Shown here piece by piece: positions 1 to 14,198 of a stretch of 50,154 nt of DNA. The DNA is taken from the NCBI GenBank assembly GCA_027037055.1, contig JALWBR010000053.1, forward strand, positions 1 to 50,154, read 5' to 3'. The first letter of the stretch is position 1. Each line of letters opens with the position of its first letter. Under the pieces are notes generated by a model that searched no databases, was not told the origin of the DNA, and saw only the letters and a list, made by a program, of their open reading frames with translations. The DNA comes from Aquificales bacterium. GTDB taxonomy: Bacteria; Aquificota; Aquificia; Aquificales; Aquificaceae. A program made the position numbers and the translations under genes.

Positions 1-1303
<1,303 letters not shown>

Positions 1304-1339
1304 GATTTTTTAAATCACCCCAGTTTTTACCACCTTCCC

Positions 1340-1382
1340 CCTATTCAGTTGCCAATGAGCCTTGACCGAAACGCAATCTAAT
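1340..1382 (-). promoter_or_regulatory. 16S leader with boxA-like antitermination element
   Basis: The transcribed leader contains TAGATTGCGTTTCGG followed by GGCTCATTGGCAA (1361-1349) and TGAATAGG. The GGCTC-TTGGCAA core resembles the boxA RNA of Aquifex aeolicus bound by NusB-NusE, as I recall it (GGCUCCUUGGCA). Almost the same leader stands before the 23S gene at 50049-50087, so two independent rRNA transcripts share one element. A role in rRNA antitermination or processing is inferred. Confidence 0.7.
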
Positions 1383-1411
1383 AATATACACAAATAACCG
1401 CTGTGCGTCAA
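1383..1411 (-). promoter_or_regulatory. 16S rRNA promoter
   Basis: On the minus strand TTGACG (1411-1406) and TATATT (1388-1383) are separated by exactly 17 bp, a near-consensus sigma-70-type promoter. Transcription would start near 1376, about 73 nt before the mature 16S 5' end. The -35 box begins only 15 bp past the stop codon of the co-directional KamA-like gene. The same TATATT box and downstream leader recur before the 23S gene at 50020-50048. Confidence 0.85.
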
Positions 1412-1425
1412 GCTTTTCTTTGCTA

Positions 1426-2556
1426 TTAAACTACACTCTCACTGCCTATTTCCGCTTTGAAGCTGTCAACCTGTTCCGTATAATCATCAAACCACCGCGC
1501 TTCTGGGTTTCTTCTGAAGACGAGAAATTTACCCCTGTTCTCAGGCGATGCGGATCTGTGATAACGGAAGTATATATACTCTTCAGTTTTGCCCAGTATT
1601 TCTATCTTTCCCGTTTCGTGGGACATCACATACAGTACCCTTGCTCCTAAACCCGACATTCTTGATCTTACTTCTTCTACCAGATCAATTGTATCTTCTA
1701 TGTAAGTTGAGTAGGCTTCATTTCCTACGGTAGGTCTGCATTGGAATACATAGTACGGAGCTACACCGTTGAAGGATAACTCTTCAAGAAGATTGTGTAA
1801 AGTATCCGCATTATCATTTATACCTTTAAGGATAGGTGTTTGATTTGTCATAGGTGTGCCGGTTTTTAATACCAATTTTATGGCTTCCTTTGCCTCTTTT
1901 GTAAGCTCCCTCGGGTGGTTGAAATGATTCATAAGATAAAGTTTTTTGGTTGGTAAGTTGTTGAACCATTCAAATAGTTCAAGGATTTCTTGATCTTCCG
2001 TTATTCTGAAGGGATTAACCGCCAACATCTTTGAGCCTATCCGTACTATTCTCACATGGGGTATTTCCGCCATACTTTCCAGAATTTTGGCAAGTTTTTT
2101 TGTGGAGAGAATAAGCGGGTCTCCTCCTGTCAGAAGGACATTGTTTATTTCCGGATTTTCTTTTATGTAGTTTAAACCTTCCGTAATGTCCCTTGCAACT
2201 TCGTCATTATCGTTCATAAAAAGTCTTTTCCTGAAACAGAAACGGCAGTATATCCCGCATACATCCGTAACAAGTAGGAGGGCTGTATCGGGATATTTGT
2301 GTTCCAGACCGTGGACTTTTGTATATTTACTTTCATTGGATGCATCCAATTTACCCCACACCTTAAGTTCATCCATGGTGGGAATGACTATTTTTTTTAT
2401 GGGATCTTCGGGATCTTCCCAATTTATGAGGGAATTGTAATAATCGTTTGTACGGAAGGCAAATTTATCCGTAACTTCCCTAAGTCTTTCTCTTTCCTCT
2501 TGCGGAATCTGATTTACATGACCTATATCAATGATGTATTTTACACGCCTCTTCAT
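1426..2556 (-). CDS. KamA-family radical SAM protein (lysine 2,3-aminomutase-like)
   Basis: A 376-residue radical SAM enzyme of the aminomutase family. The 4Fe-4S cluster motif CGIYCRFC (C100, C104, C107) and the SAM-binding GGDPL at 144-148 are intact, and Lys317 in ETGKIEIL aligns with the PLP-binding lysine of lysine 2,3-aminomutase. The two aspartates that hold substrate lysine in the clostridial enzyme (Asp293, Asp330) are not conserved: the QCD position reads QCR (Arg274), and the second falls at V310/M311. The protein is therefore unlikely to be a standard lysine 2,3-aminomutase; a different amino acid or an EpmB-like role is possible. Start ATG 2556 follows a good GGAGGTG site. It is transcribed toward the 16S gene, whose -35 box lies 15 bp beyond its stop. 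Family is certain, substrate unknown. Confidence 0.85.
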   Translation of the reverse strand: MKRRVKYIIDIGHVNQIPQEERERLREVTDKFAFRTNDYYNSLINWEDPEDPIKKIVIPTMDELKVWGKLDASNESKYTKVHGLEHKYPDTALLLVTDVCGIYCRFCFRKRLFMNDNDEVARDITEGLNYIKENPEINNVLLTGGDPLILSTKKLAKILESMAEIPHVRIVRIGSKMLAVNPFRITEDQEILELFEWFNNLPTKKLYLMNHFNHPRELTKEAKEAIKLVLKTGTPMTNQTPILKGINDNADTLHNLLEELSFNGVAPYYVFQCRPTVGNEAYSTYIEDTIDLVEEVRSRMSGLGARVLYVMSHETGKIEILGKTEEYIYFRYHRSASPENRGKFLVFRRNPEARWFDDYTEQVDSFKAEIGSESVV

Positions 2557-2670
2557 CCTTACACCTCCTTTTGGGGCTTGTAAAATGATAACCTAAATTT
2601 GGGTGTGGGGTAGAAGAAAAGGAAAATTATTTGTTGAAGGGGATTTTTATGATGAATAACAAATAAAAAA

Positions 2671-2691
2671 AAGGGGGCAAAATGCCCCCTT
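2671..2691 (-). terminator. Rho-independent terminator after the repeat protein gene
   Basis: A perfect 9-bp inverted repeat (AAGGGGGCA / TGCCCCCTT, 3-nt loop) lies 20 bp past the stop of the 2712-3281 gene. On the minus strand it is followed by a T-rich run (about 2670-2661), the classical intrinsic terminator form. It is the only clear intrinsic terminator I found in the window, and it isolates the sigma-54-driven gene from kamA. Confidence 0.85.
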
Positions 2692-2711
2692 CCGGCTTTT
2701 CTTTTTGAGGA

Positions 2712-3281
2712 TTAATATACGTTGTTGTAGGCTGTCTGGTCGTTGGTTTGGGTTGTGGTTATGCTTGTGGCGGTGGCGAGATTACCGACCGCATTAAGAC
2801 CAAGGTTTGATGCGGACTGAGCACTGTTGACCGCGGCTACAGCATTAGCATTTTCCTGAGCCTCATTAATGAGCTGTACGGAAGCGTTGTTGTTGAACTG
2901 TTCATCATCAACATCATCTTCGGTGTAAACATACTGGTCGGTGTAATCTACATAGTTGTCAGCGTACTGATCATTGGTCTGGGTTGCGACTATGTCACCG
3001 CTTGTGGAGAGGTTACCCAAGAGGTTTACACCTGTGTTATCCGCGGACTGGGCGTTGTTGTTGACAACAACATTTTCAATATCCTGTTGTGCTTCGTTGG
3101 CAAGCTGGAGAGATCCGTTGTTGTTGAACTGTTCATCGTCAAGGTCCTCGTCGTTAATAATTATCTGAATACCCTTAGCGCTGACCTCTTCCAGCTCTTC
3201 CTCTGAAAGAACTTCTCCGGATACAGCAGGTATGCTCAAAGCTCCCGCCAACAGGGTTGAAAGTAAAATATGCTTCTTCAT
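2712..3281 (-). CDS. Secreted Asn/Gln-rich two-repeat protein, functional-amyloid-like
   Basis: A 189-residue exported protein with a Sec signal peptide (residues 1-22, MKKHILLSTLLAGALSIPAV). Then comes an acidic stretch, LSEEELEEVSAKG, which resembles leader segments of other exported small proteins. The rest is two imperfect copies of a roughly 60-residue unit (about 47-106 and 126-187). Each starts DDEQFNNN, continues QL-NEAQ, N-AQSA-N-G-N--GNL, and ends TQTND. The N-x-A/Q and GxN--G pattern is reminiscent of Fap (FapB/FapC) and curlin amyloid repeats, but I cannot assign it to either family. There are no cysteines and very few positive charges after the signal peptide. It has its own sigma-54 promoter and its own terminator, so it is a single-gene transcription unit. 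Start ATG 3281 has a strong GGAGGAGG site. Function unknown; a surface fibre or biofilm component is a hypothesis. Confidence 0.75.
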   Translation of the reverse strand: MKKHILLSTLLAGALSIPAVSGEVLSEEELEEVSAKGIQIIINDEDLDDEQFNNNGSLQLANEAQQDIENVVVNNNAQSADNTGVNLLGNLSTSGDIVATQTNDQYADNYVDYTDQYVYTEDDVDDEQFNNNASVQLINEAQENANAVAAVNSAQSASNLGLNAVGNLATATSITTTQTNDQTAYNNVY

Positions 3282-3322
3282 GATTCTACCTCCTCCATTA
3301 GATTTTGGTCATATTATAAGTA

Positions 3323-3337
3323 GCAATAAGTGTGCCA
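3323..3337 (-). promoter_or_regulatory. Sigma-54 (RpoN) -24/-12 promoter
   Basis: The minus strand reads TGGCACACTTATTGC, an exact match to the sigma-54 core TGGCAC-N5-TTGC with both invariant GG and GC dinucleotides correctly spaced. Transcription would start about 12 nt downstream, near 3311, leaving a roughly 30-nt leader with a GGAGGAGG ribosome site before the ATG at 3281. The next gene in that direction is the secreted repeat protein. Confidence 0.85.
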
Positions 3338-3392
3338 TAGTCGTAAGTTCTTGACAACAGGGAATATTAGGATTTTCTAATATGCACTTTTT

Positions 3393-3494
3393 TGTCAAAT
3401 ATTTTTACACTTTTTGGAGGTGTTATATAAGTCTTTGATAAAGCGTGTAAATCGTTATGTAAAATTCTTTTACAGCATGTAAAAATGGTTTACA
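3393..3494. promoter_or_regulatory. Three 17-bp palindromes, likely enhancer sites of an NtrC-class activator
   Basis: Two perfect palindromes TGTAAA-N5-TTTACA lie at 3458-3474 and 3478-3494, centres 20 bp apart (two helical turns). A third copy with one mismatch (TGTCAA-N5-TTTACA) is at 3393-3409. Relative to the predicted sigma-54 start near 3311 they sit at about -82 to -183, the usual enhancer range. The 6-5-6 layout equals that of NtrC sites, though the bases differ. The leftmost-numbered block also contains an inverted repeat ATATTAG-N6-CTAATAT at 3364-3383. The last palindrome overlaps the end of ktrA. The cognate activator is not in the window. Confidence 0.7.
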
Positions 3495-4137
3495 TTGCAA
3501 CTTCTTCAACTATATCTTCGTTACCGAGGATGAGGAGAATATCATCCTCCTTTATTACCTCTTCACCGTGAGGATTTACTATAACCCTGTCGCCCCTTTT
3601 TATAGCTAACACATTTATTCCGTATTTCCTTCTCAAGTCAAGCTCCCTAAGGGTTTTGTCTGTAAAACTTTGCTTGGGTTTTATTTCAAAGATGCTGTAG
3701 CCGGGTGCAAAGGATACTTCTTCTATTATTCCCGAGACTATAAGCGATCTTGCAAGTTTTACCGCTATTTCCTTTTCTGGATATACTATTTTGCTTACAC
3801 CGAGCTTTTCAAGTACCTTACCGTGAAGGTGATTTATTGCTTTTGCAATAATTTCTTTTACTCCGTTACTCATAAGAATAACTATGGTAAGTATGCTTGC
3901 CTCTATATTTGCACCTATACTGACTATAACCGTATCCGCTGTAAAAATACCCGACTCCTCAAGGGCTTTTTCGTCCGTAACATCTGCCACAAAGGCTTTC
4001 GTTACAAGATCACTTATGGCTTTTACCTTGTCTTCATTTCTGTCAATTGCTATAACATCCGCCCCGGATTTTGCCAATGTTTCCGCCACATGGAAACCAA
4101 ACCTTCCTAAGCCTATAACACCGAAGGTTTTCCTCAT
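3490..4137 (-). CDS. ktrA: Potassium uptake regulatory subunit KtrA/TrkA
   Basis: A 215-residue cytoplasmic gating subunit for a Ktr/Trk potassium channel. Residues 1-135 form an RCK_N Rossmann domain: GLGRFG at 8-13 is the dinucleotide loop and the acidic end of the second strand is AIDRNE. Residues 140-215 form an RCK_C domain. Length and two-domain layout fit KtrA (about 220 aa) rather than the duplicated TrkA. The ATG overlaps the stop of the TrkH-like gene by 4 bp (ATGA), so the two are translationally coupled and surely partners. Its last codons overlap a palindrome that belongs to the next gene's regulatory region. Confidence 0.9.
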   Translation of the reverse strand: MRKTFGVIGLGRFGFHVAETLAKSGADVIAIDRNEDKVKAISDLVTKAFVADVTDEKALEESGIFTADTVIVSIGANIEASILTIVILMSNGVKEIIAKAINHLHGKVLEKLGVSKIVYPEKEIAVKLARSLIVSGIIEEVSFAPGYSIFEIKPKQSFTDKTLRELDLRRKYGINVLAIKRGDRVIVNPHGEEVIKEDDILLILGNEDIVEEVAM

Positions 4138-5465
4138 ACCAAAATCTTTGCCTCAGTATATTTTATATGCATTTCCCTTTCCCTTGGAGATATTGCCATC
4201 ATAAAACTGAGTATCCCCACCCTTCCTACTATCATTGTGGTTATAATCATAAGCTTTGAAAGGGGAGAGAAATCTGCGGAAAGGCTTTCACCTCCCGAAG
4301 AACCTACTGACAGCCCTACGGTTGAGAAGGCGGAGACCACCTCAAAAAGTATATAGAGCAGATACCTTCCTTCCGTTATTCCTATCAAAGTATTTATTAT
4401 TACTATATAGAACAAAGAAAGGGTTATTATAACCATTGATTTATAAATGGTACTTTCTGGAATCCTTCTGAAGAATATAACTGGATGCTTCCTTCCGCCT
4501 ATATAGGATATAACCGAGTACACTATCACTGCAAAGGTTGTTGTCTTTATCCCGCCTCCTGTACCTCCGGGTGATGCTCCTATGAACATAAGGGCTAAGA
4601 TTATAAAAAGGGTTGCCTCCGAAAGTATACTCAGATCTATGGTTGAAAAACCCGCTGTTCTTGAATATACGGACAAAGAAAGGGCTGTGAAAAGCTTATC
4701 CCAGAAACTCCAGTCCTCCGCCTTTACGGGATTTATATATTCCGTAATCAATATGAAAAATGCACCCGTTAACCACAGGAATATGTTTGTATAAAGCACA
4801 AGCTTCGTATGTACTGAGAGTGCATTTATCTTTCTCTTTAAATAGAACCACACATCGTTTATAACAAAAAATCCCAAGCCTCCGAGTATAACGAGCAGGA
4901 AGGTTATAAGGTTTATGTAGATATCTCCGTGGAATTCTTTGAAACTTTCTGGAAATATGGAAAATCCCGCATTATTGAAAGAGGAAATGCTGTGAAAGAT
5001 GGCATATATTATCGCTTCACTCAAAGGGTACATATTTAAGAAGGGTATAAGAAAAAGAAAGAAGCCCACTATCTCTACGGAGAATACGAATATAACCGTT
5101 CTCCTTAGGAATCTTATGAGACCATACAGCCCCGGGTAGTTTAAGGCTTCGGATAATATCATCCTCTCTTTCAGTCCTATCTTTTTACCCACGGAAATCA
5201 TAAAGAAGGTGGCAAGGGTCATGTAGCCGAGACCCCCTATCTGTATTAGCATCAATATTATCAATTGTCCTGTTAGGGAGAAGGATTCCCTTATATTTAC
5301 CACATTGAGTCCCGTTACTGTAACCGCGGATGTTGCTGTGAAAAGTATATCTATAAAACTTAGATCGGTTGTTCTTGAAAAGGGAAGATAAAGGAGGAGG
5401 GTGCCGACCCCTATGAGGGTAAGATAAGAGAGGAAAACTATTCTTTGGGGGCTAAAAAGTTCCAT
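4134..5465 (-). CDS. ktrB: Potassium-translocating subunit, TrkH/KtrB family
   Basis: A 443-residue integral membrane protein, KtrB-sized, with the four M1-P-M2 repeats of the SKT family. The selectivity-filter glycines lie in [19 protein letters not shown] and STVGLS. It imports K+ (possibly with Na+) across the cytoplasmic membrane with the KtrA-type subunit encoded just downstream. The start ATG at 5465 overlaps the end of the chemoreceptor gene by 14 bp, so K+ uptake lies in the same operon as the ODP-chemoreceptor pair. The carboxy end is basic and cytoplasmic. Confidence 0.9.
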
Positions 5466-6330
5466 TAAGGTTCTTTTCTACGCCGAGCAATGCCTGTGAT
5501 ACATTTTTTGCTTCCTTTAGGTCATCAAGTAAGGATTTTACATTGCTTTTGATATCTTCAACCATCTTGCTTTGCTGTTCAGCATTTACCGTAATTGTAT
5601 TTAAAGCACCGCTTATATCCTTTACCGATTTGTTAAGATTGTCAAAGTAACTGCGCATTTCCTTTACATCCTCTACGAGGGAGTCAAAGGCTTCCTTTAT
5701 AACCTCCATTTCATCCACCATTGATTCTACCGATTTCATAAGATAGTCCATCACCTCACCTATGCTTTTTGCAAGTTCATCAGTCTTTTGGGATAAACTC
5801 CTTATCTCTTCCGCAACAACCGCAAAGCCTCTTCCCACCTCACCCACTCTCGCTGCTTCTATGGATGCATTCAAGGACAGTATTCCCGTCTGTTCCGCTA
5901 TACCCGTTATCTGTACAACAACATCAAGCACCCTTTTCGCCGCTTCCTTCAAATCTATCATCCTTTTTATAGCCTTATTAACGGATTCATACTTTTCATT
6001 TATTGCCTCAACCTTCTTTGCTATCCTTTCATCCTCTTCTTTGGCTTCTTCAGCTGTTTTGTTAACAGTTTCATTTATCGCGGTTATGTTGTTTACTATA
6101 TCCTTAAGGGACTCCGCGAAGGCATCCATTGCTTGGTTTGTTCTGTAAGTAATTTCCTCCATATCTTCAACATTTTTTACCCAGAGCTTCACCGCATTTT
6201 TAAGTAGTTGTCTTATTACTATGGAATGGTGTATGTGGGGAGTTATGTTCTTAGTTACCGAGAAAAAGAAATCCCTCTCATAACCCTCTTGGGTTTTCTC
6301 ACCCGTTTTTTTCTGCGAAAATATGCCCAT
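5452..6330 (-). CDS. Soluble methyl-accepting chemotaxis protein
   Basis: A 292-residue chemoreceptor signalling protein with no membrane segment. The conserved MCP hairpin tip lies at about 143-176 ([24 protein letters not shown]), flanked by long coiled-coil arms, so it should bind CheA/CheW in the cytoplasm. The first 60 residues are not a recognised sensor domain and contain a His cluster (PHIHHS, H32, H34, H35). The gene is 11 bp after the diiron MBL-fold gene. That pairing matches the ODP-MCP pair of Treponema denticola, where ODP senses oxygen and iron for a cytosolic receptor. CheA/CheW are not in the window, but flagellar regulators are. Start ATG 6330 has a GGAGAGG site. Confidence 0.88.
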
Positions 6331-6341
6331 GGGAACCTCTC

Positions 6342-7115
6342 CTATCCGTAAATTTCTTCAAGCACATCAACACCGCATTTCAGATTTGCTATCCAATTTA
6401 GAAATCTATGAACATCCTGACCCTTAAATATAGCACCGTGTTGGGGAGCTATCATTGATATCTCGTATTTACTAACCTTCTCAACCCATTTCCTGCATAC
6501 TTGTGTTCCCTTCATATACCTCCTATGAAAGCCCTCCATTAATTTTAAATGATCGTCAAAATTGTTAACAATTAAATATCTGCTGCCTTTTGGAAAGACA
6601 GCAGCACCTATGTCTCCTGAGAACAATATCTTTGATCTGCTGTCATAGGCGGAGAAGTTGCCCACCGAGTGGAGATAGTGGGCGGGAATAAGATCTATAA
6701 AATCACCTGTGGGCAGATCTATCCTGTCACCCTTGTCTTCAATGGGATGAATTCTTGATGAATCTATAACACCGAAGTGGGGAAGGAATCTTGTCCACAG
6801 TTTTGAAATATAGACAGTGGCAGGAGTAACCGAGAGCCACAGGGCAACTCCTGAAGAAACATCTGGATCCTGGTGGGAGAAGAAGATATATTTTACCTGG
6901 TCAAGGTCAATGTACCTTGCAACATTTGCTACCACTCTTGAGAATGCATAGACACCCCCCGGATCAAGTAATACACCAACACCATCGTTAATAATGAGAT
7001 ATTGGTTAACCTGCACCATACCTTCATCTTCTTCCTCCTCCCACCCGAGCCATATAAACTTATGTTCACCGTCATCATAAAGCACCTTACCCTTTATAAG
7101 CTCGTCCTTACTCAT
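6342..7115 (-). CDS. ODP-like oxygen/iron-sensing diiron protein (flavodiiron-related MBL fold)
   Basis: A 257-residue metallo-beta-lactamase-fold protein of the flavodiiron type without the flavodoxin domain (flavodiiron proteins have about 400 residues). Probable diiron ligands are H81, D83 and D85 in HQDPD, then H149, D168 in FSGD and H226 in PQHG. D83 replaces the usual glutamate, and the residue after D85 is Val instead of His. Short proteins of this kind (ODP) bind oxygen at a diiron site and signal to a soluble chemoreceptor; the next gene, 11 bp away, is exactly such a receptor. It is first of the operon ODP-MCP-trkH-ktrA. Start ATG 7115 follows GGAGGTG. A simple MBL hydrolase is less likely given the partner gene. 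Confidence 0.85.
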
Positions 7116-7148
7116 GGGAACACCTCCAAATAAATAGGGTTGTTATCC

Positions 7149-7173
7149 ACCCCCAATGGGTAGCATTTATGTA
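7149..7173 (-). promoter_or_regulatory. CsoR-like G-tract pseudo-palindrome upstream of the ODP gene
   Basis: The minus strand carries TACCCATTGGGGGT (7162-7149), matching the merT operator TACCCATAGGGGGT (49834-49821) at 13 of 14 positions. A possible -10 box TACATA (7173-7168) precedes it, which would put the site just after the transcription start, the same arrangement as at merT. The -35 box is poor. A shared metal-responsive repressor is inferred. Confidence 0.4.
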
Positions 7174-7193
7174 AAAAACCATCATTTTTTGAA

Positions 7194-8360
7194 TTAATTT
7201 AGTAATATTTTATCGGTTTTCACTATAAGTTTTGCAATCCAAGGGAATATTATGGAGGATAAAGTGGCACAAAGGAGAAGGGAAGCCCTGAGATCGTCAC
7301 CTATTAAACCCGTTGAAAAGGCAATTTCACTTCCTACTATAAGCAATGTGAAGGGGAAGGATAGGGACAAGGTAACAAGGACACTTTTGGCTAAATCAAT
7401 GTTTAGAATCTTTAAATAAGGAAGTGCTACAAATCTTACAAGTATAAGCATTACTGTAAATAGAATACCGTATCCTATGGTTTCTTTTTTAAGAAATATT
7501 TCAATATCCGTATCCATACCGAAAGTTATGAAAAATATGGGTATGAGGAATCCGTATCCGAAGGCACTTAGCTTTTCAACGAGATTTTCCTTCTTCCTGA
7601 GAAAGTATGACATAAGAATGCCACCTATGAAGGCTCCGAGGATGGACTCCGTCCCCACATACCTTGTTATGAGGGCAAGACTGAACATAAGTACCAAGCT
7701 TATCCTTATTCCCATCGCTGTGGGATCTTTTTCATACATGAGCTTCTGAAAAACTTCGGGAAACCACCACACGAGGAGTTTGAGAAGGTTGAATAATATA
7801 AAGAGGGATATGAAAAGGAACAGGATTTTTGTGAAGCTCATAATTCCTTCCATGTTAAATCCGTAAACGCCGTATATATCAATGAAGGTCAGTATAAGTA
7901 AGCTCCATATCTCACCTATACCCCCTATTATTATGATGTTTTTACCCACATCCGTATTAGTAAGATTGAGTTCCTTTATTAGGGAAAAGGCTAAACCTAT
8001 GGCTATAACGGATAGGAGGGTACCTATTATTGCGGGCTTTCCCATATAATAAAGCAAGCTTGTGGATATGAGGGTTATAAGGGGAGGGTATATAAAATAA
8101 AAAAGCAGTTTGCGGGAAGGCAACTTTTCAATAAGGTTGAAATCCGCTTCTAAACCTGCTAAAAACATGAGAAGCAAAAATCCGAATTCGGAAAGGAAAT
8201 CAACAATATAAAACTCCGATCCCTTATAACCTAAGGCGTTACCTATTAATAAGCCGTAACCTATCTCCGCTATTGCAACGGGTACATGGAATAATCTTGC
8301 CAGTATGGGCGACAATAAGGCACCCGCTATTATTAGGAGTATTACAAGGGTTTCATCCAT
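7194..8360 (-). CDS. CPA2-family monovalent cation/proton antiporter (Kef/NapA type)
   Basis: A 388-residue inner-membrane protein made almost entirely of hydrophobic helices, about 12 membrane segments, typical of CPA2 exchangers (Pfam Na_H_Exchanger). It would exchange K+ or Na+ for protons. It lacks the C-terminal nucleotide-binding RCK domain of KefB/KefC. That domain is instead supplied by the separate gene ending 9 bp upstream (8370-9698), which suggests a two-subunit antiporter. A TGAGGT ribosome site precedes ATG 8360. Together with the downstream TrkH/KtrA it forms a K+/Na+ homeostasis neighbourhood. Ion specificity cannot be read from the sequence. Confidence 0.85.
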   Translation of the reverse strand: MDETLVILLIIAGALLSPILARLFHVPVAIAEIGYGLLIGNALGYKGSEFYIVDFLSEFGFLLLMFLAGLEADFNLIEKLPSRKLLFYFIYPPLITLISTSLLYYMGKPAIIGTLLSVIAIGLAFSLIKELNLTNTDVGKNIIIIGGIGEIWSLLILTFIDIYGVYGFNMEGIMSFTKILFLFISLFILFNLLKLLVWWFPEVFQKLMYEKDPTAMGIRISLVLMFSLALITRYVGTESILGAFIGGILMSYFLRKKENLVEKLSAFGYGFLIPIFFITFGMDTDIEIFLKKETIGYGILFTVMLILVRFVALPYLKILNIDLAKSVLVTLSLSFPFTLLIVGSEIAFSTGLIGDDLRASLLLCATLSSIIFPWIAKLIVKTDKILLN

Positions 8361-8369
8361 CGGTTTACC

Positions 8370-9698
8370 TCATGAAGGTATGAGAAGGGTTGAGATATTT
8401 GATTTCTTAGCAAGAAGATGGGGTGTGTAGGGTTCAAAGAAGGTTGAGGTCTTTCCCGTTCTGAAACCAAGGACGAGCAGATTGTACCCTTTGAGCTCCT
8501 TCAGTGTCTCCCTTACGGGATTACCCTCCTTTATTTTAAGTTCAATGTCCATATTGTAGGTTTTTGTATATCTGCTTACCATACTTCTGAGGCTTTTTAT
8601 ATACTCTTTTTCTTCCTCTGTTCTCATATTTTCAACCGTCGCCACATATATTATTGAACCCTTTGCATTTGTTTGCCTTATTATGTCTATTCCGCTTGAC
8701 ATTAACATATCCCTGCCGTCCGTGTTCAGGGATATAAGTATGTTTTCATAAGGGTGTGTCCTTTTTGATAAAAGAACGGGTACCTTAGCCCTTTTGAAAA
8801 CGAGATCAACAACGGATGGAGACCAGAAACCCCTCTTTATATAGTCAAAAACAAGGATTCCCGTATCCTCCGGTTGATTTCCTATTTCGCATTCCTTTGA
8901 TGCCTTTTTAACAACAGAATGAATCATCATAACCGATTTCATGTAATCTATCTCATCGTAGTGAGAGAAGTTTGTTTCAGAACAGTAAATAAGTTTATTG
9001 CCCCATCTGAGGGGAAAGTCCGGGAGCCCCTTAATTATTATTTCTACAAATATTTTGACATAGGACGGTTCTCCCACTATGAGTAGTCTGTCCCCTTGCT
9101 CAATTACCGTATCGCCTTTGGGTAAAATTACCTCTTCTCCTCTGTATATAAGAACAATTCTTACATTTCTCATACCCAGATGTTTTAAAGGTTTGTTCAG
9201 GGCGGGTGATGTTTCCGTGACAGTAACTTCAACTATTTCACCTTCCTCAAGACCAACGCCATAGGCGAATTTTACGAGGTTGCTTCCTTTTATCTGGTTT
9301 AAAAGTGACAGATATATGAGCTTCGGGACATCTATTACACTTATTTGGTACTTTTCAAATTCCGAAGGTATTTCTCCCCCTCTCCATACGCATATTATGG
9401 GTCCTGTGAAGTTAACAAGATTCCTTAATAAATTTGCTATTTCCAGGGTGAGTGTGTAATCAACGAATAGGATAACCGAGTCAACCTTTTCAATATCTAT
9501 CTCATGTTTCCAAAAGTATATGCTTGTGCCGTCTCCCTGAGCAAAGGATATTTTTTTACTTCCTTCTGTAGCTTCCTTAAGTTCCTTCAGCTTATCTTCA
9601 TCCCTTTCTATTACAAGAAGATTGCTTATCTCGGAAAGCTCCTTTATTACCCTTAGACCTGATTTGCTTAAGCCTATAACTATATGTACCTTTTCCAT
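8370..9698 (-). CDS. RCK (TrkA-type) plus universal stress protein fusion
   Basis: A 442-residue cytoplasmic protein. Residues 1-130 are a RCK_N-like fold starting VIGLSKSG with an acidic strand end (VIERDE); about 145-225 are RCK_C (GEIVEVTV to GDRLLIVG). Residues 230-442 look like a UspA region, ending LLVLGFRTGKTSTFF and STLLIPS, which resembles the nucleotide-binding GxxG-S/T loop of Usp proteins. It probably regulates the CPA2 antiporter encoded 9 bp downstream in response to nucleotides or ions. Its ATG overlaps the stop of the zinc-ribbon gene (TAATG), so it is translationally coupled. The RCK-Usp combination is uncommon. Confidence 0.82.
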   Translation of the reverse strand: MEKVHIVIGLSKSGLRVIKELSEISNLLVIERDEDKLKELKEATEGSKKISFAQGDGTSIYFWKHEIDIEKVDSVILFVDYTLTLEIANLLRNLVNFTGPIICVWRGGEIPSEFEKYQISVIDVPKLIYLSLLNQIKGSNLVKFAYGVGLEEGEIVEVTVTETSPALNKPLKHLGMRNVRIVLIYRGEEVILPKGDTVIEQGDRLLIVGEPSYVKIFVEIIIKGLPDFPLRWGNKLIYCSETNFSHYDEIDYMKSVMMIHSVVKKASKECEIGNQPEDTGILVFDYIKRGFWSPSVVDLVFKRAKVPVLLSKRTHPYENILISLNTDGRDMLMSSGIDIIRQTNAKGSIIYVATVENMRTEEEKEYIKSLRSMVSRYTKTYNMDIELKIKEGNPVRETLKELKGYNLLVLGFRTGKTSTFFEPYTPHLLAKKSNISTLLIPS

Positions 9699-10401
9699 TA
9701 TTCAATATAGAATATCCATCTTCCGCAGTTCGGACACTTTCCCTCCTTACCCTTTATAATCTCCGAATATACCTTCCCAGGAATTTTCATAGTGCATACC
9801 GAACATGCCCCGTTTTCCACCATAGCAACCACCTTTCCTCCGAAGGATTCCCTATACTTATCGTAAAATTCAAGGATTTCTTCAGACAATTTGTTTCTTA
9901 ACTCTTCTATTTCCTTCTTCTTCTTTTCTATTTTTTCCCGTGTATATTTCTTTTCATATTCAATGTCTTCCAGTTCTTCTTGAATCTCCTCAAGTTTTTT
10001 CATTATTTCCTTTTCCTTTTTTATGTTCTCTTCCGTAAGTATTTTTAATTTTTCTTTCAGTTCATCAGTTTCATAGGCAAGTTTCAATATAGTGTCCTCC
10101 TTCTTTGCCTTTTCTTTAAGGAAAGCTTTGTATTCTTTGTCGGACTTTATATATTCTTTTTTCCTCTCAAGCTGTTCAAGAATTATTTCTTCCTCCTTTA
10201 TTTTTTCTTCCTTTTCCTTTATTTCCCTTTCAAGATTTGCCTTTTTCTCCTTTAATTTTTTTAACTCTTCCTCAAGTTTTTCTTTCTCTCTTTCAAAATT
10301 TTTTTTTCCGTATCCAGCTTCTCAAGTCTTCTAAAAAGGTGTTCAAGATCTTCCTGAGCTACCTGAAGATCAAGAAGGATTTTAACTTCTTTTGCATCCA
10401 T
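9698..10401 (-). pseudogene. C4-type zinc-ribbon coiled-coil protein, interrupted by a frameshift at an A9 tract
   Basis: Two adjoining frames on the minus strand make one recognisable protein of about 234 residues of the zf-RING_7/CT398 family. The first runs from ATG 10401 (MDAKEVKILLDLQVAQED) to about 10300 and then stops shortly after. The second continues the same coiled coil and ends in a zinc ribbon (CSVC about 30 residues before CPNCGRW). The frames join at nine consecutive A residues (10301 region, plus-strand T9 at 10299-10307). One extra A, or a -1 slip, restores the full protein. This could be a sequencing error, transcriptional slippage or a true mutation. The downstream RCK-USP gene still overlaps its stop, which argues that the 3' part is translated. 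Length and ends suit the family only if the frames are joined. Confidence 0.75.
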
Positions 10402-10413
10402 CCTTATTTTCCT

Positions 10414-10488
10414 TGGTGGGCCCGGGAGGACTCGAACCCCCAACCGGGCGGTTATGAGCCGCCCGCTCTGCCATTGAGCTACGGGCCC
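10414..10488 (-). tRNA. tRNA with CAU anticodon (elongator Met or Ile2)
   Basis: The minus strand folds as a full cloverleaf: acceptor GGGCCCG/CGGGCCC, D-arm GCTC/GAGC, anticodon arm GGCGG-CTCATAA-CCGCC, T-loop GTTCGAGTC, discriminator A and encoded CCA (10416-10414). The anticodon CAT is at 10456-10454. It is not initiator tRNA: position 1 pairs with 72 (G-C) and the anticodon stem lacks the three G-C pairs. The GGGCCC acceptor is common in tRNA-Ile(CAU), whose C34 is modified to lysidine by TilS, so Ile2 is at least as likely as elongator Met. It lies 13 bp before the zinc-ribbon ATG and 39 bp after aroB', perhaps cotranscribed. Confidence 0.93.
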
Positions 10489-10526
10489 TTTAACGGGTGC
10501 AAAATTTAATTATAAGTAGTTTTGTT

Positions 10527-11504
10527 TTACTTTTCAATTATTGTTTCTTCTACCTTCATACCGAAGTGTCTTCCCGCCTCCTCTACATATCCTAACACTT
10601 CGTCACCTTCCTTTAACTCTACCACCGATACGGGAGATCCATCGGGTTTTGTAAGCCTTATAGTTTCAGCATTTTGCAATATACAGCTGACCCTTTTCTT
10701 TTCATAAACCCCTTCTATCAGAAGCATTGGCCTTCTTTCAACCTTTGATCTTCCCACATAGGCAACCCTTCCTTCACCTTTATGGTTGTATATCATAACC
10801 TCATCGCCCGCATTAAGCTCGCAAAGGTACTTTGTTTTACCCCCAGGCACCCTTATGTACATGTGCACCGCACCCGCATTAACCCTGAAAGGTCTTGAGG
10901 CAACATAGGGATTTTCTTCCGTTTCCGCATGAACCAGAAACATGCCACCAGAAGAGTTTCCTACGAGCATTCCCTCTCCCCTTGTCATCAGTGAGGTGGT
11001 ATCAACACAAACCCTGTCGCTCAAACCGAGAGGCAATATTTTTGTTATCTTAAATTTTACAAGGGGTAATCTCTCTTGGGAAGAGTTTATAACCTTTCCA
11101 ACCCTTTTTATTTCGTTAATGTCCTTCGTCTTAAGAACTACACCCTTTACACCCTTTTCAAGGATCTGTATCGCGGTCTCCGCTTCTTCCGCATTTTTTA
11201 CTACCGCGTATATTTCCTCTTTCTGTGCTATCAGGTTTTCAAGGGGGATTACTGTCCAATCGGTTGTCTCAACTATAACATTTACACCGGGGGGATATTT
11301 TGCAGCCCTTTCTTCGTCTTCTTTATTCTCTATTTTTACATATTCCACATCTTTTCCTGGCTTTAAAACCTTTATCCTTCCGAGCTTTTTTACCTTTTCC
11401 GCTTTTTCTTCGTCCGGTGTAACTATGGCGGATGCACCCGATTCAAGGGCGGTAGTTACCAGTTTATTATCATCATCTTCAAACCAAAACCAAAATTCTT
11501 TCAT
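10527..11504 (-). CDS. aroB': 3-dehydroquinate synthase II (archaeal-type AroB')
   Basis: A 325-residue protein of the archaeal-type dehydroquinate synthase family (MJ1249-like), recognisable by N-terminal EFWFW, the central [16 protein letters not shown] motif, [11 protein letters not shown] and the carboxy GDEVL. In archaea it converts 2-amino-3,7-dideoxy-D-threo-hept-6-ulosonate and NAD+ to 3-dehydroquinate, the entry to the shikimate pathway. It is unrelated to bacterial AroB. Presence in a bacterium suggests either an ancient gene transfer or an alternative aromatic pathway; the partner ADH synthase is not in the window. ATG 11504 lies 46 bp after fliA on the same strand. Confidence 0.9.
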
Positions 11505-11550
11505 GTTGATTTATTATCCATCACTCCGAAGACTTGTGCAAGGGAAAGAT

Positions 11551-12261
11551 TCACTCTTCCCTTATGTACTTTTTCATCCTTTCTAAGGCGCGGGCTTTTA
11601 TCTGGGAAACCCTTGATATAGAACAGCCGAGTATCTGTGCAACCTCTTTTAATGGTAATTCCTCATAAAAGATAAGTTGTAATACCATCTTCTCCTTTTC
11701 ATCAAGCTTTTCAACTGCCTTTCTTACCTTTTCCTCCATCTCCTTGGATATAACCGACTCTTCTATGGAAGGTGCATCCGAGTTAACTATCTCCTCGTAG
11801 GATCTTCCCTCATCTTGCTTGAATATATCTTCAAGGCTTAATATGTAGGAGAAGGATATGCTGTGAAGGTCGTGATAGAAGGATTCCACATTTTCTCCGA
11901 GTCTTTGGGATATTTCCTCATCCGTGGGTTCCCTTCCCAATTCCTTTGAAAGCTCTTCAAGTGCTTTCTTTATTTTCTTTTCCTTTTCCCTGACCCTTCT
12001 GCTTCCAAAATCAAGACTCCTGAGATAGTCATATATCGCACCCCTTATCCTTATCTTAATGTAGCTTTCGGGATTCTTTGTTTTGTCCATTCTGTCTATG
12101 GCGTTTATAAGTCCCACTATGCCATAGCCTATAAGGTCTTGAAGATCCACCGAAGGTGGAAGTTGCCTTTTTATCCGCAAGGCTATGGATTTTACAAGGG
12201 GCATGTATTTAAGTATTAGTTCTTCCCTTTCTTTTTCCGGAATACTGTAAAACTTTGCCAT
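11551..12261 (-). CDS. fliA: Flagellar sigma factor FliA (sigma-28)
   Basis: A 236-residue sigma-70-family factor lacking region 1. Region 2 (about 10-90: LVKSIALRIK, DLQDLIGYGIVGLI-A-D) binds core and the -10 element; region 3 follows; region 4 (about 175-235: LPLKEVAQILGCSISRVSQIKARA) is the -35-binding helix-turn-helix. Length and order match FliA, which directs late flagellar genes. It ends the cluster flhA-flhF-flhG-fliA and starts 2 bp after flhG. No clear sigma-28 promoter (TAAA-N15-GCCGATAA) was found in the window. Confidence 0.93.
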   Translation of the reverse strand: MAKFYSIPEKEREELILKYMPLVKSIALRIKRQLPPSVDLQDLIGYGIVGLINAIDRMDKTKNPESYIKIRIRGAIYDYLRSLDFGSRRVREKEKKIKKALEELSKELGREPTDEEISQRLGENVESFYHDLHSISFSYILSLEDIFKQDEGRSYEEIVNSDAPSIEESVISKEMEEKVRKAVEKLDEKEKMVLQLIFYEELPLKEVAQILGCSISRVSQIKARALERMKKYIREE

Positions 12262-12262
12262 A

Positions 12263-13099
12263 TTACCTTCTTAGCAGTAATGATATTAGTTTATTCCAGA
12301 AGCCTTCAGAACGCACCTCGTATTTTATGGGCAGGTTACCGAGGGTTACTTCAAGCTCCTTTACCATGTCTTCATTGAATGGCTTTTGATTCACTATACT
12401 TCTTATTATATTCTTGTTGTATCGTATTGATCCCATAAAGTGTATTTTTGCTTCCGTGAACTTATGACAGAGAATGTTAAGACTTTCGTAAACCTTCCTT
12501 CCTTCTTCACGGGACGATACCTTATTAACGAGTACATAAAAGTCTTTTACTCCGTTTTGTTTATTAGCTATCTTTATAAGGGCATAGGCGTCCGCCACTG
12601 CGGTCGGTTCTGGTGTCGTTATTACTATGGGAAGGTCAACCGCGCTTACTATTGCAATTGTATCCTCGTGTATGCCTGGGGGGGTGTCAAATACGACTAT
12701 ATCGTAGTCCGATTCCGCAATTTCCTTTATCCTTGATATAAGGTTAAGTATCTGTTTTTCCGGCATATTGGCAAGTTCCCTGACTCCGCTCCCGCTTGAT
12801 ATAAAGGCAACATTTTCCTTTATCTTAATCACTATCTCTTCAAGGGTCATCTCCCCTTTAATAACATTGACGAGGTTTTTATCGGGGGCTATACCGAGCA
12901 TAAGGTGTATGTTGCTAAGTCCGAAGTCTCCGTCTATTATCAGAACCCTTTTCCCCTGTTTTGCAAGAAGGTCAGAGATATTTATGGAGAAAAGGGTCTT
13001 ACCTACACCCCCTTTTCCGCTCGTAAGGGCTATGTACTTAGGTTCCCTCCCTTCTTTTGAAGCATCCTTAAGATGGGTTATCTGTTGGTCAACCTTCAT
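12263..13099 (-). CDS. flhG: Flagellar number regulator FlhG (FleN, MinD-like ATPase)
   Basis: A 278-residue ParA/MinD-family ATPase. The deviant Walker A SGKGGVGKT is at about residue 26, the switch DTPPG at about 136, and a basic C-terminal amphipathic segment could touch membrane. FlhG limits flagellar number and works opposite FlhF, whose gene is directly upstream. The start is set at ATG 13099, which has an AGGTG site 6 nt before it; a GTG 9 nt upstream (13108) is less likely. It overlaps flhF by 11 bp. Being between flhF and fliA rules out a plain chromosome-partition role. Confidence 0.92.
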   Translation of the reverse strand: MKVDQQITHLKDASKEGREPKYIALTSGKGGVGKTLFSINISDLLAKQGKRVLIIDGDFGLSNIHLMLGIAPDKNLVNVIKGEMTLEEIVIKIKENVAFISSGSGVRELANMPEKQILNLISRIKEIAESDYDIVVFDTPPGIHEDTIAIVSAVDLPIVITTPEPTAVADAYALIKIANKQNGVKDFYVLVNKVSSREEGRKVYESLNILCHKFTEAKIHFMGSIRYNKNIIRSIVNQKPFNEDMVKELEVTLGNLPIKYEVRSEGFWNKLISLLLRR

Positions 13100-14198
13100 G
13101 GTTTTCACCTATTATAAGTTGCGCAAGCCCCTCATAGGTTGCCATCATTATGTCATCTGGTACCCTCTGGCCCGTTGTAAGACAAAGTATGGGAAGCTTT
13201 GTTCTGAATGATACATTTATTATGCTTCCTGGATAAACCGTTTCGTCAAGCTTTGTGAATATGAACCCTTTCGGGGAAAACATGCTGAACTTTTCTATCG
13301 TTTCATACATGGCTTTCTCTTGAAGGTTAGCGTTCAGTGTTAAGTATATGTCCATTGCCGGGACTCTGTGTAAAAAGGCGTGAAGTTCCTGCAGTCTTAT
13401 TATGTCATACTGACTTCTTCCCGCTGTATCTACGAGTATTACATCAAGGGATGAAAGTTCTCCTATGTGTTCCCTGAATTTCTGGGGTGTATCGGAAACC
13501 CTTAAAGGTAGCTCCATTATGTTGAGGAAGGCTTTAAGTTGCTCTACCGCCCCCACCCTGAAGCTGTCAAGGGTTATAACACCTATCTTCTTACCCCTCC
13601 TTCTGAGTATGTGAGCTATTTTTGCAAGGGTCGTAGTCTTGCCCACCCCCGTGGGTCCCACAAAGGCTATTATCTTAAAGTTATCATCTTCTTCAAGTAA
13701 ATCCTTAAGGATGTTTATATTTTGATTCAAGCCTTCTTTTAGTGATTCAAAGCTATCGTTTTTTAGATCCAATCTTCCTATCTCATAATCGTACCCGCAT
13801 GCATCTTCAACAATCTTTTTGGCTACCTCTTTTTCAACTCCTTTGTTTATAAGTTTGTTTATAAGATTCATAGCCCTTAAGGAAAATTCGTTTTCTTCAA
13901 TGGTTACACTTGCGGATTCTTTTGTCTTTACCATATCCATAACTTCCCTGACCGTTTCCTTAAGTTTGTTAATCTCATCGTATATACCTTCTTGTTTTTG
14001 CAGTTCCTTTGCAAAATCTTCTTCATCGGGTATTCCCACGGTTATTTCAAGGACAGATCTTCTTAAAAAGGGAAGGAAGGGTATTATATTTTTCTTTATA
14101 ACCTTTGAAGAAAGGATCATCGCATCCTTACCGTAAATCTTTTTAACCTCCTCTACCGCCTCCTGCAATGAAGATGCCTCAATCTTCTTAATCTTCAT
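13089..14198 (-). CDS. flhF: Flagellar biosynthesis GTPase FlhF
   Basis: A 369-residue SRP-type GTPase that sets flagellar position at the pole. The N-terminal B domain (1-110) is basic and variable, beginning [22 protein letters not shown]-like. Then comes the N domain, and the G domain starts at about 178 with [13 protein letters not shown] (P-loop), DTAGRS and TKLDE (G4). It overlaps flhA by 11 bp and flhG by 11 bp, so the three are coupled. ATG 14198 is preferred to the TTG one codon upstream. Confidence 0.94.

Follow-up and report, generated by a model that had tools for sequence, protein, structure and literature searches.

Gene organization of the ODP-MCP locus

The window (the whole stretch of DNA analysed, 50,154 nucleotides, from a 1.67-Mb genome in 54 contigs, G000) carries six genes in one same-strand run, transcribed from the minus strand in the order TrkA-like gene, CPA2 antiporter gene, ODP, MCP, trkH and ktrA. 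Its last four members encode an oxygen-binding di-iron protein (ODP; 6342..7115, 257 aa; PF19583, E = 7e-77), a soluble chemoreceptor comprising only a signalling hairpin (MCP; 5452..6330, 292 aa; PF00015, MCPsignal, E = 5e-33), the K+ uptake channel subunit TrkH (4134..5465; PF02386, E = 1e-60; TIGR00933, 357.7 bits, above the cut-off of 331.15 bits) and a KtrA/TrkA-type RCK regulatory subunit (3490..4137; TrkA_N, E = 2e-27; TrkA_C, E = 1e-16). ODP and MCP are separated by 11 bp, trkH begins within the MCP gene (14-bp overlap), and trkH and ktrA overlap by 4 bp. An earlier note on this DNA, which delimited the operon at 3490-7115, had these four genes right, including the overlapping trkH and ktrA downstream of the MCP gene, but stopped short of a further ion-transport couplet at 7194-9698.

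This second couplet shares the strand of ODP and lies directly upstream of it, across a gap of 78 bp. It consists of a CPA2 monovalent cation/proton antiporter (7194..8360, minus strand; PF00999, E = 9e-46; TIGR00932, E = 6e-44, below that model's cut-off) and, across a 9-bp gap, its partner with TrkA_N and TrkA_C domains (8370..9698, minus strand; E = 6e-9 and 4e-17, respectively). Comparison between same-genus genomes gave dN/dS values of 0.007-0.081 for the locus genes, a sign of strong purifying selection, and they are therefore more than chance open frames. These low values show that the genes are retained; they say nothing on whether the products work jointly.

Downstream of ktrA, after 208 bp, the window encodes a secreted-looking protein of 189 aa with two similar Asn/Gln-rich repeats (2712-3281), for which Pfam and NCBIfam returned no match. 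An open reading frame of equal length occupies the corresponding position in locus L049.

The ODP and its predicted di-iron site

The window ODP scores 258 bits against PF19583 (curated cut-off 27.2) and aligns end to end with both ODP structures in the PDB (6qrq, E = 4e-104; 6qnm, E = 8e-99). Its fold class is that of the metallo-beta-lactamases, and a Pfam scan returned no flavodoxin domain, in agreement with the earlier description of a flavodiiron-like protein lacking that domain. Seven residues (H81, D83, D85, H146, H149, D168 and H226) are invariant in 12/12 aligned ODPs, including all six encoded in this genome. Six of them (all except H146) align with flavodiiron metal-ligand positions in 1vme, and the invariant residues are the predicted ligands of a di-iron site.

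Might the protein instead be an O2 or NO reductase, that is, a flavodiiron enzyme rather than a sensor? ODPs belong to the same superfamily as the flavodiiron proteins, and the window ODP shares with 1vme and 4dik the metallo-beta-lactamase core and common metal-ligand positions. Unlike those enzymes, it lacks the flavodoxin domain, carries the extra invariant H146, and reads HQDPDV where 1vme reads HTEPDH, so that the glutamate and the second histidine become aspartate and valine. Together with the retention of an MCP partner gene alongside, these differences make an enzymatic role very improbable. Assignment to the flavodiiron proteins proper was rejected, given the missing flavodoxin match and the HQDPDV sequence in place of HxExDH.

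Four of the six ODP genes in this genome have no MCP neighbour, so an ODP alone is not sufficient to mark a chemotaxis protein. Among the ODPs unlinked to MCPs, those at L039 (7120-8777) and L081 (1162-3381) lie in same-strand runs with a gene for the copper chaperone PCu(A)C, joined at L081 by SCO1/SenC and a thioredoxin-like gene; L082, L084 and L035 resemble these runs in gene sizes and spacing. Such runs would point to cytochrome oxidase copper assembly, with the ODP as oxygen sensor or assembly partner. At L042 (2694-3981), 4 bp separate another lone ODP from a gene for a peptidase M54 (archaemetzincin-type). Downstream of ODPs of the Acidithiobacillus type comes, at a spacing of -4 to 12 bp, a small gene of about 114-125 aa (L100, L112, L114, L115, L117-L121, L123 and L125); the one product scanned, from L120, had no Pfam match.

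A soluble chemoreceptor reduced to its signalling domain

The MCP consists of 292 residues of signalling domain, with no sensor domain. A Kyte-Doolittle scan found no strongly hydrophobic, membrane-spanning segment (best 19-residue mean, 1.19), and the AlphaFold model (mean pLDDT 86, pTM 0.47) is a single hairpin of two long helices with a turn near residue 162. The scan, the predicted hairpin and the 11-bp junction thus bear out the earlier proposal of a membrane-free MCP immediately following the ODP. A Foldseek search with the model retrieved MCP structures, including the soluble Thermotoga maritima receptor 3g67 (chain B, TM-score 0.90 by target). Like that receptor (3g67/3g6b; TM-scores 0.87-0.90 by target, B chains), the window MCP is a cytoplasmic hairpin; unlike it, the window protein is about 80 residues longer.

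In an alignment with 18 ODP-linked MCPs of other lineages, the window MCP is only 18-28% identical to them, a point against the sensor-pair reading. Its most conserved stretch is the signalling tip. We considered a docking motif at the MCP termini and rejected it: in a comparison that excluded L069 and L090, N-terminal residues 25-65 were fairly conserved in Spirochaetota (0.67-0.69) and did not rise above the bundle in Aquificota (0.44-0.57). When length classes were compared with the genome's other MCPs, the bundle ends aligned poorly.

In Treponema denticola, the gene of the ODP TDE2498 is linked to that of the receptor TDE2496, an MCP without transmembrane and sensing modules; this receptor modulates CheA activity, and deletion of the ODP changes CheA ordering (PMC7666581). 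The window pair shares with that system an ODP gene linked to an MCP devoid of transmembrane and sensor domains. It differs in that the operon goes on into trkH-ktrA and in that the genome encodes two ODP-MCP pairs plus four additional ODPs. TREND (PMC7319448) has already described operons that combine ODPs with MCP genes, in either of two orders, as well as with further genes for signalling.

Chemotaxis genes in the genome

The genome encodes the machinery through which such a receptor could act. One cluster (contig C20) carries genes for FliM, FliN, CheZ, CheY, a CheV-type protein, CheA and CheW, and a second cheA cluster lies on C35. On C39, cheR and cheB are directly followed by the second ODP-MCP pair (L040, 4165-7637). 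The four genomes of the genus all share this order (L207-L210; in L207 a contig end cuts the MCP). An absence of che genes, named in the earlier note as grounds for abandoning its reading, is thus not the case: CheA, CheW, CheY and motor genes are all present, with two cheA clusters and cheR-cheB.

Across 37 genomes of the family, CheA occurs in all 10 that carry an ODP-MCP pair versus 8/27 without one (Fisher p = 1.3e-4; G025 was counted as pair-bearing from a partial MCP). Arranged by CheA, the same counts place pairs in 10 of the 18 genomes with CheA and in 0/19 without it. Counted by genus, the association is not significant (4/4 versus 2/7, p = 0.06), so common ancestry may account for some of the co-occurrence.

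Phylogeny of ODP and MCP

Phylogenetic analysis of the ODPs (60 rows) placed all 48 MCP-linked sequences, along with two lone ODPs of genus g10, in one group (support 97/85). Their hosts span Aquificota, Thermotogota, Synergistota, Spirochaetota, Dictyoglomota, a Thermococcus and an unassigned bacterium. The window ODP falls within this group, and the four ODP paralogs of this genome that lack an MCP fall outside it. For the trees, 12 of the 76 unpaired ODPs were used, and four truncated sequences from the window lineage (L128, L129, L130 and L154) were left out; L017/L198 (both from G025), L207 and L063 were excluded from the pairs, their MCP being cut or unrecognised. One locus comparison left out 14 duplicate loci.

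The window ODP and MCP share the same sister lineage, genus g5, in both trees (90/82 for ODP; 100/98 in the tree of 48 MCPs), and the MCP tree is weakly supported at its deep branches. A fixed partnership would be expected to leave such parallel descent, yet adjacency alone would yield the same pattern.

The two lone ODPs of MCP type, both in genus g10, sit on long branches. In G019, which has no CheA match, the protein (L206) keeps all seven residues; in G031, where the CheA match is split over two frames, the ODP (L205) has no adjacent MCP. Decay of the ODP-MCP system in these two genomes is possible.

The identity of both proteins, the chemotaxis genes, the single MCP-linked clade and the agreeing trees together place the window pair in the published ODP-MCP chemosensory system, of which it is a genuine new Aquificota member. 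The earlier assignment to a Treponema-type ODP-MCP pair is upheld, with both families confirmed, che genes in the genome and the ODP in the MCP-linked clade. The primary account of the ODP is reportedly that of Muok (2019, PNAS).

Ion-transport couplets and gene order across relatives

In relatives, the two couplets that flank the sensor pair occur as separate units. Outside the genus, ktrA follows trkH at 22/23 trkH loci (the remaining one is cut by a contig end), a TrkA-like gene precedes CPA2 at 22/26 CPA2 loci, and the 4-bp overlap of trkH and ktrA is general in Aquificaceae. The window couplet resembles other KtrA/TrkH K+ uptake couplets in that overlap; unlike them, it is preceded by ODP-MCP, an arrangement seen only in this genus. 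The order CPA2-ODP-MCP-trkH recurs in 4/4 same-genus genomes, with the TrkA-like gene visible in three and ktrA in two, the rest being cut by contig ends. A search of relatives for the four-gene order from ODP to ktrA, suggested in the earlier note, gave a positive answer within the genus and a negative one elsewhere: none of the four ion-transport genes occurs in the available flanking sequence of any of the other 44 ODP-MCP pairs (which, for 41 of them, covers 300 or more downstream bases), and conservation of an O2-K+ operon outside the genus was rejected.

Within the genus, ODP and MCP proteins are 90-100% identical across the four genomes. Shared gene order is thus expected from descent, and these genomes are not independent witnesses; order among such close relatives is weak proof, backing co-transcription at most. 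As gene order, the potassium link exists, and it is confined to one genus.

This distribution bears on two further explanations. Unrelated cassettes may have been joined by chance operon shuffling in the genus ancestor and kept by descent, without any benefit from co-expression. Aquificales are known for mixed operons, the order is limited to one genus, and the sister lineage g5 has the ODP-MCP pair without trkH, all of which fit this explanation; ion-transport couplets on both flanks show more of a common theme than random joining predicts, although that theme was noticed post hoc. We regard chance joining as a serious contender, if on balance not the probable one.

Alternatively, the state of the ODP, or the MCP, could alter the activity or amount of TrkH/KtrA, making the locus one redox-ion response module. 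The ion-transport couplets on either side of the pair lie apart in 9/9 non-genus genomes having both, and the overlapping reading frames are retained across the genus. Set against this are the absence of the four ion-transport genes from the available flanks of the other 44 pairs and the close relationship of the genomes that show the order, and we know of no contact of MCPs with TrkH or KtrA. We consider such a module unlikely.

Regulatory signals

An alignment of four same-genus genomes and a pattern scan revealed no convincing terminator or conserved promoter in the 78-bp gap between antiporter and ODP (7116..7193, minus strand), which carries a Shine-Dalgarno-like GGAGG. Promoter pattern hits stood at chance level (24 versus 22.2 in shuffles). 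A TTTACA block in this gap was evaluated as a promoter and rejected; the block is conserved, but no conserved -10 accompanies it. The gap could still contain a promoter. An Rfam scan of window positions 1-14000 found no riboswitch that might explain co-regulation and returned only a 16S rRNA cut at the contig end (1-1303, minus strand) and a tRNA (10417-10488, minus strand).

Proposed function and significance

Collectively, we favour a two-protein cytoplasmic receptor for O2/Fe(II) chemotaxis, formed by ODP and MCP and made together with ion transporters, with no direct signal to TrkH/KtrA, and consider this reading probable. By analogy with the Treponema system, iron would bind the di-iron site of the ODP, which would react with O2, and the ODP in one of its states would dock onto the MCP hairpin. 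The hairpin is envisaged to insert in the CheA/CheW array and, if CheA is controlled as in Treponema, to alter CheY phosphorylation, which would shift FliM/FliN motor switching.

Judging from gene spacing, co-expression of the sensor pair with the ion-transport genes is likely. Shared transcription across the six-gene run, with translational coupling, would be the likeliest route by which sensor and ion transporters are made together; the coupling is proposed because trkH starts inside the MCP gene. The link from oxygen sensing to K+ import drawn in the earlier note is possible as signalling but stays conjectural. Its fuller form has a slim chance of being correct: a genus-specific module that adjusts swimming bias as well as K+ flux to O2 or iron state, by way of shared expression or of the RCK subunits. 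Searches of a partial collection of the literature turned up no previous account of an operon joining O2 sensing to K+ transport or TrkH to an MCP.

These findings put the ODP-MCP receptor in thermophilic Aquificota. Genomes of this genus carry it twice, and one of the two pairs lies within a cheR-cheB operon. The potassium link, as it stands, is a lineage-specific gene order; were it true that O2 sensing sets K+ flux, a chemoreceptor operon would here be coupled to a new kind of output.
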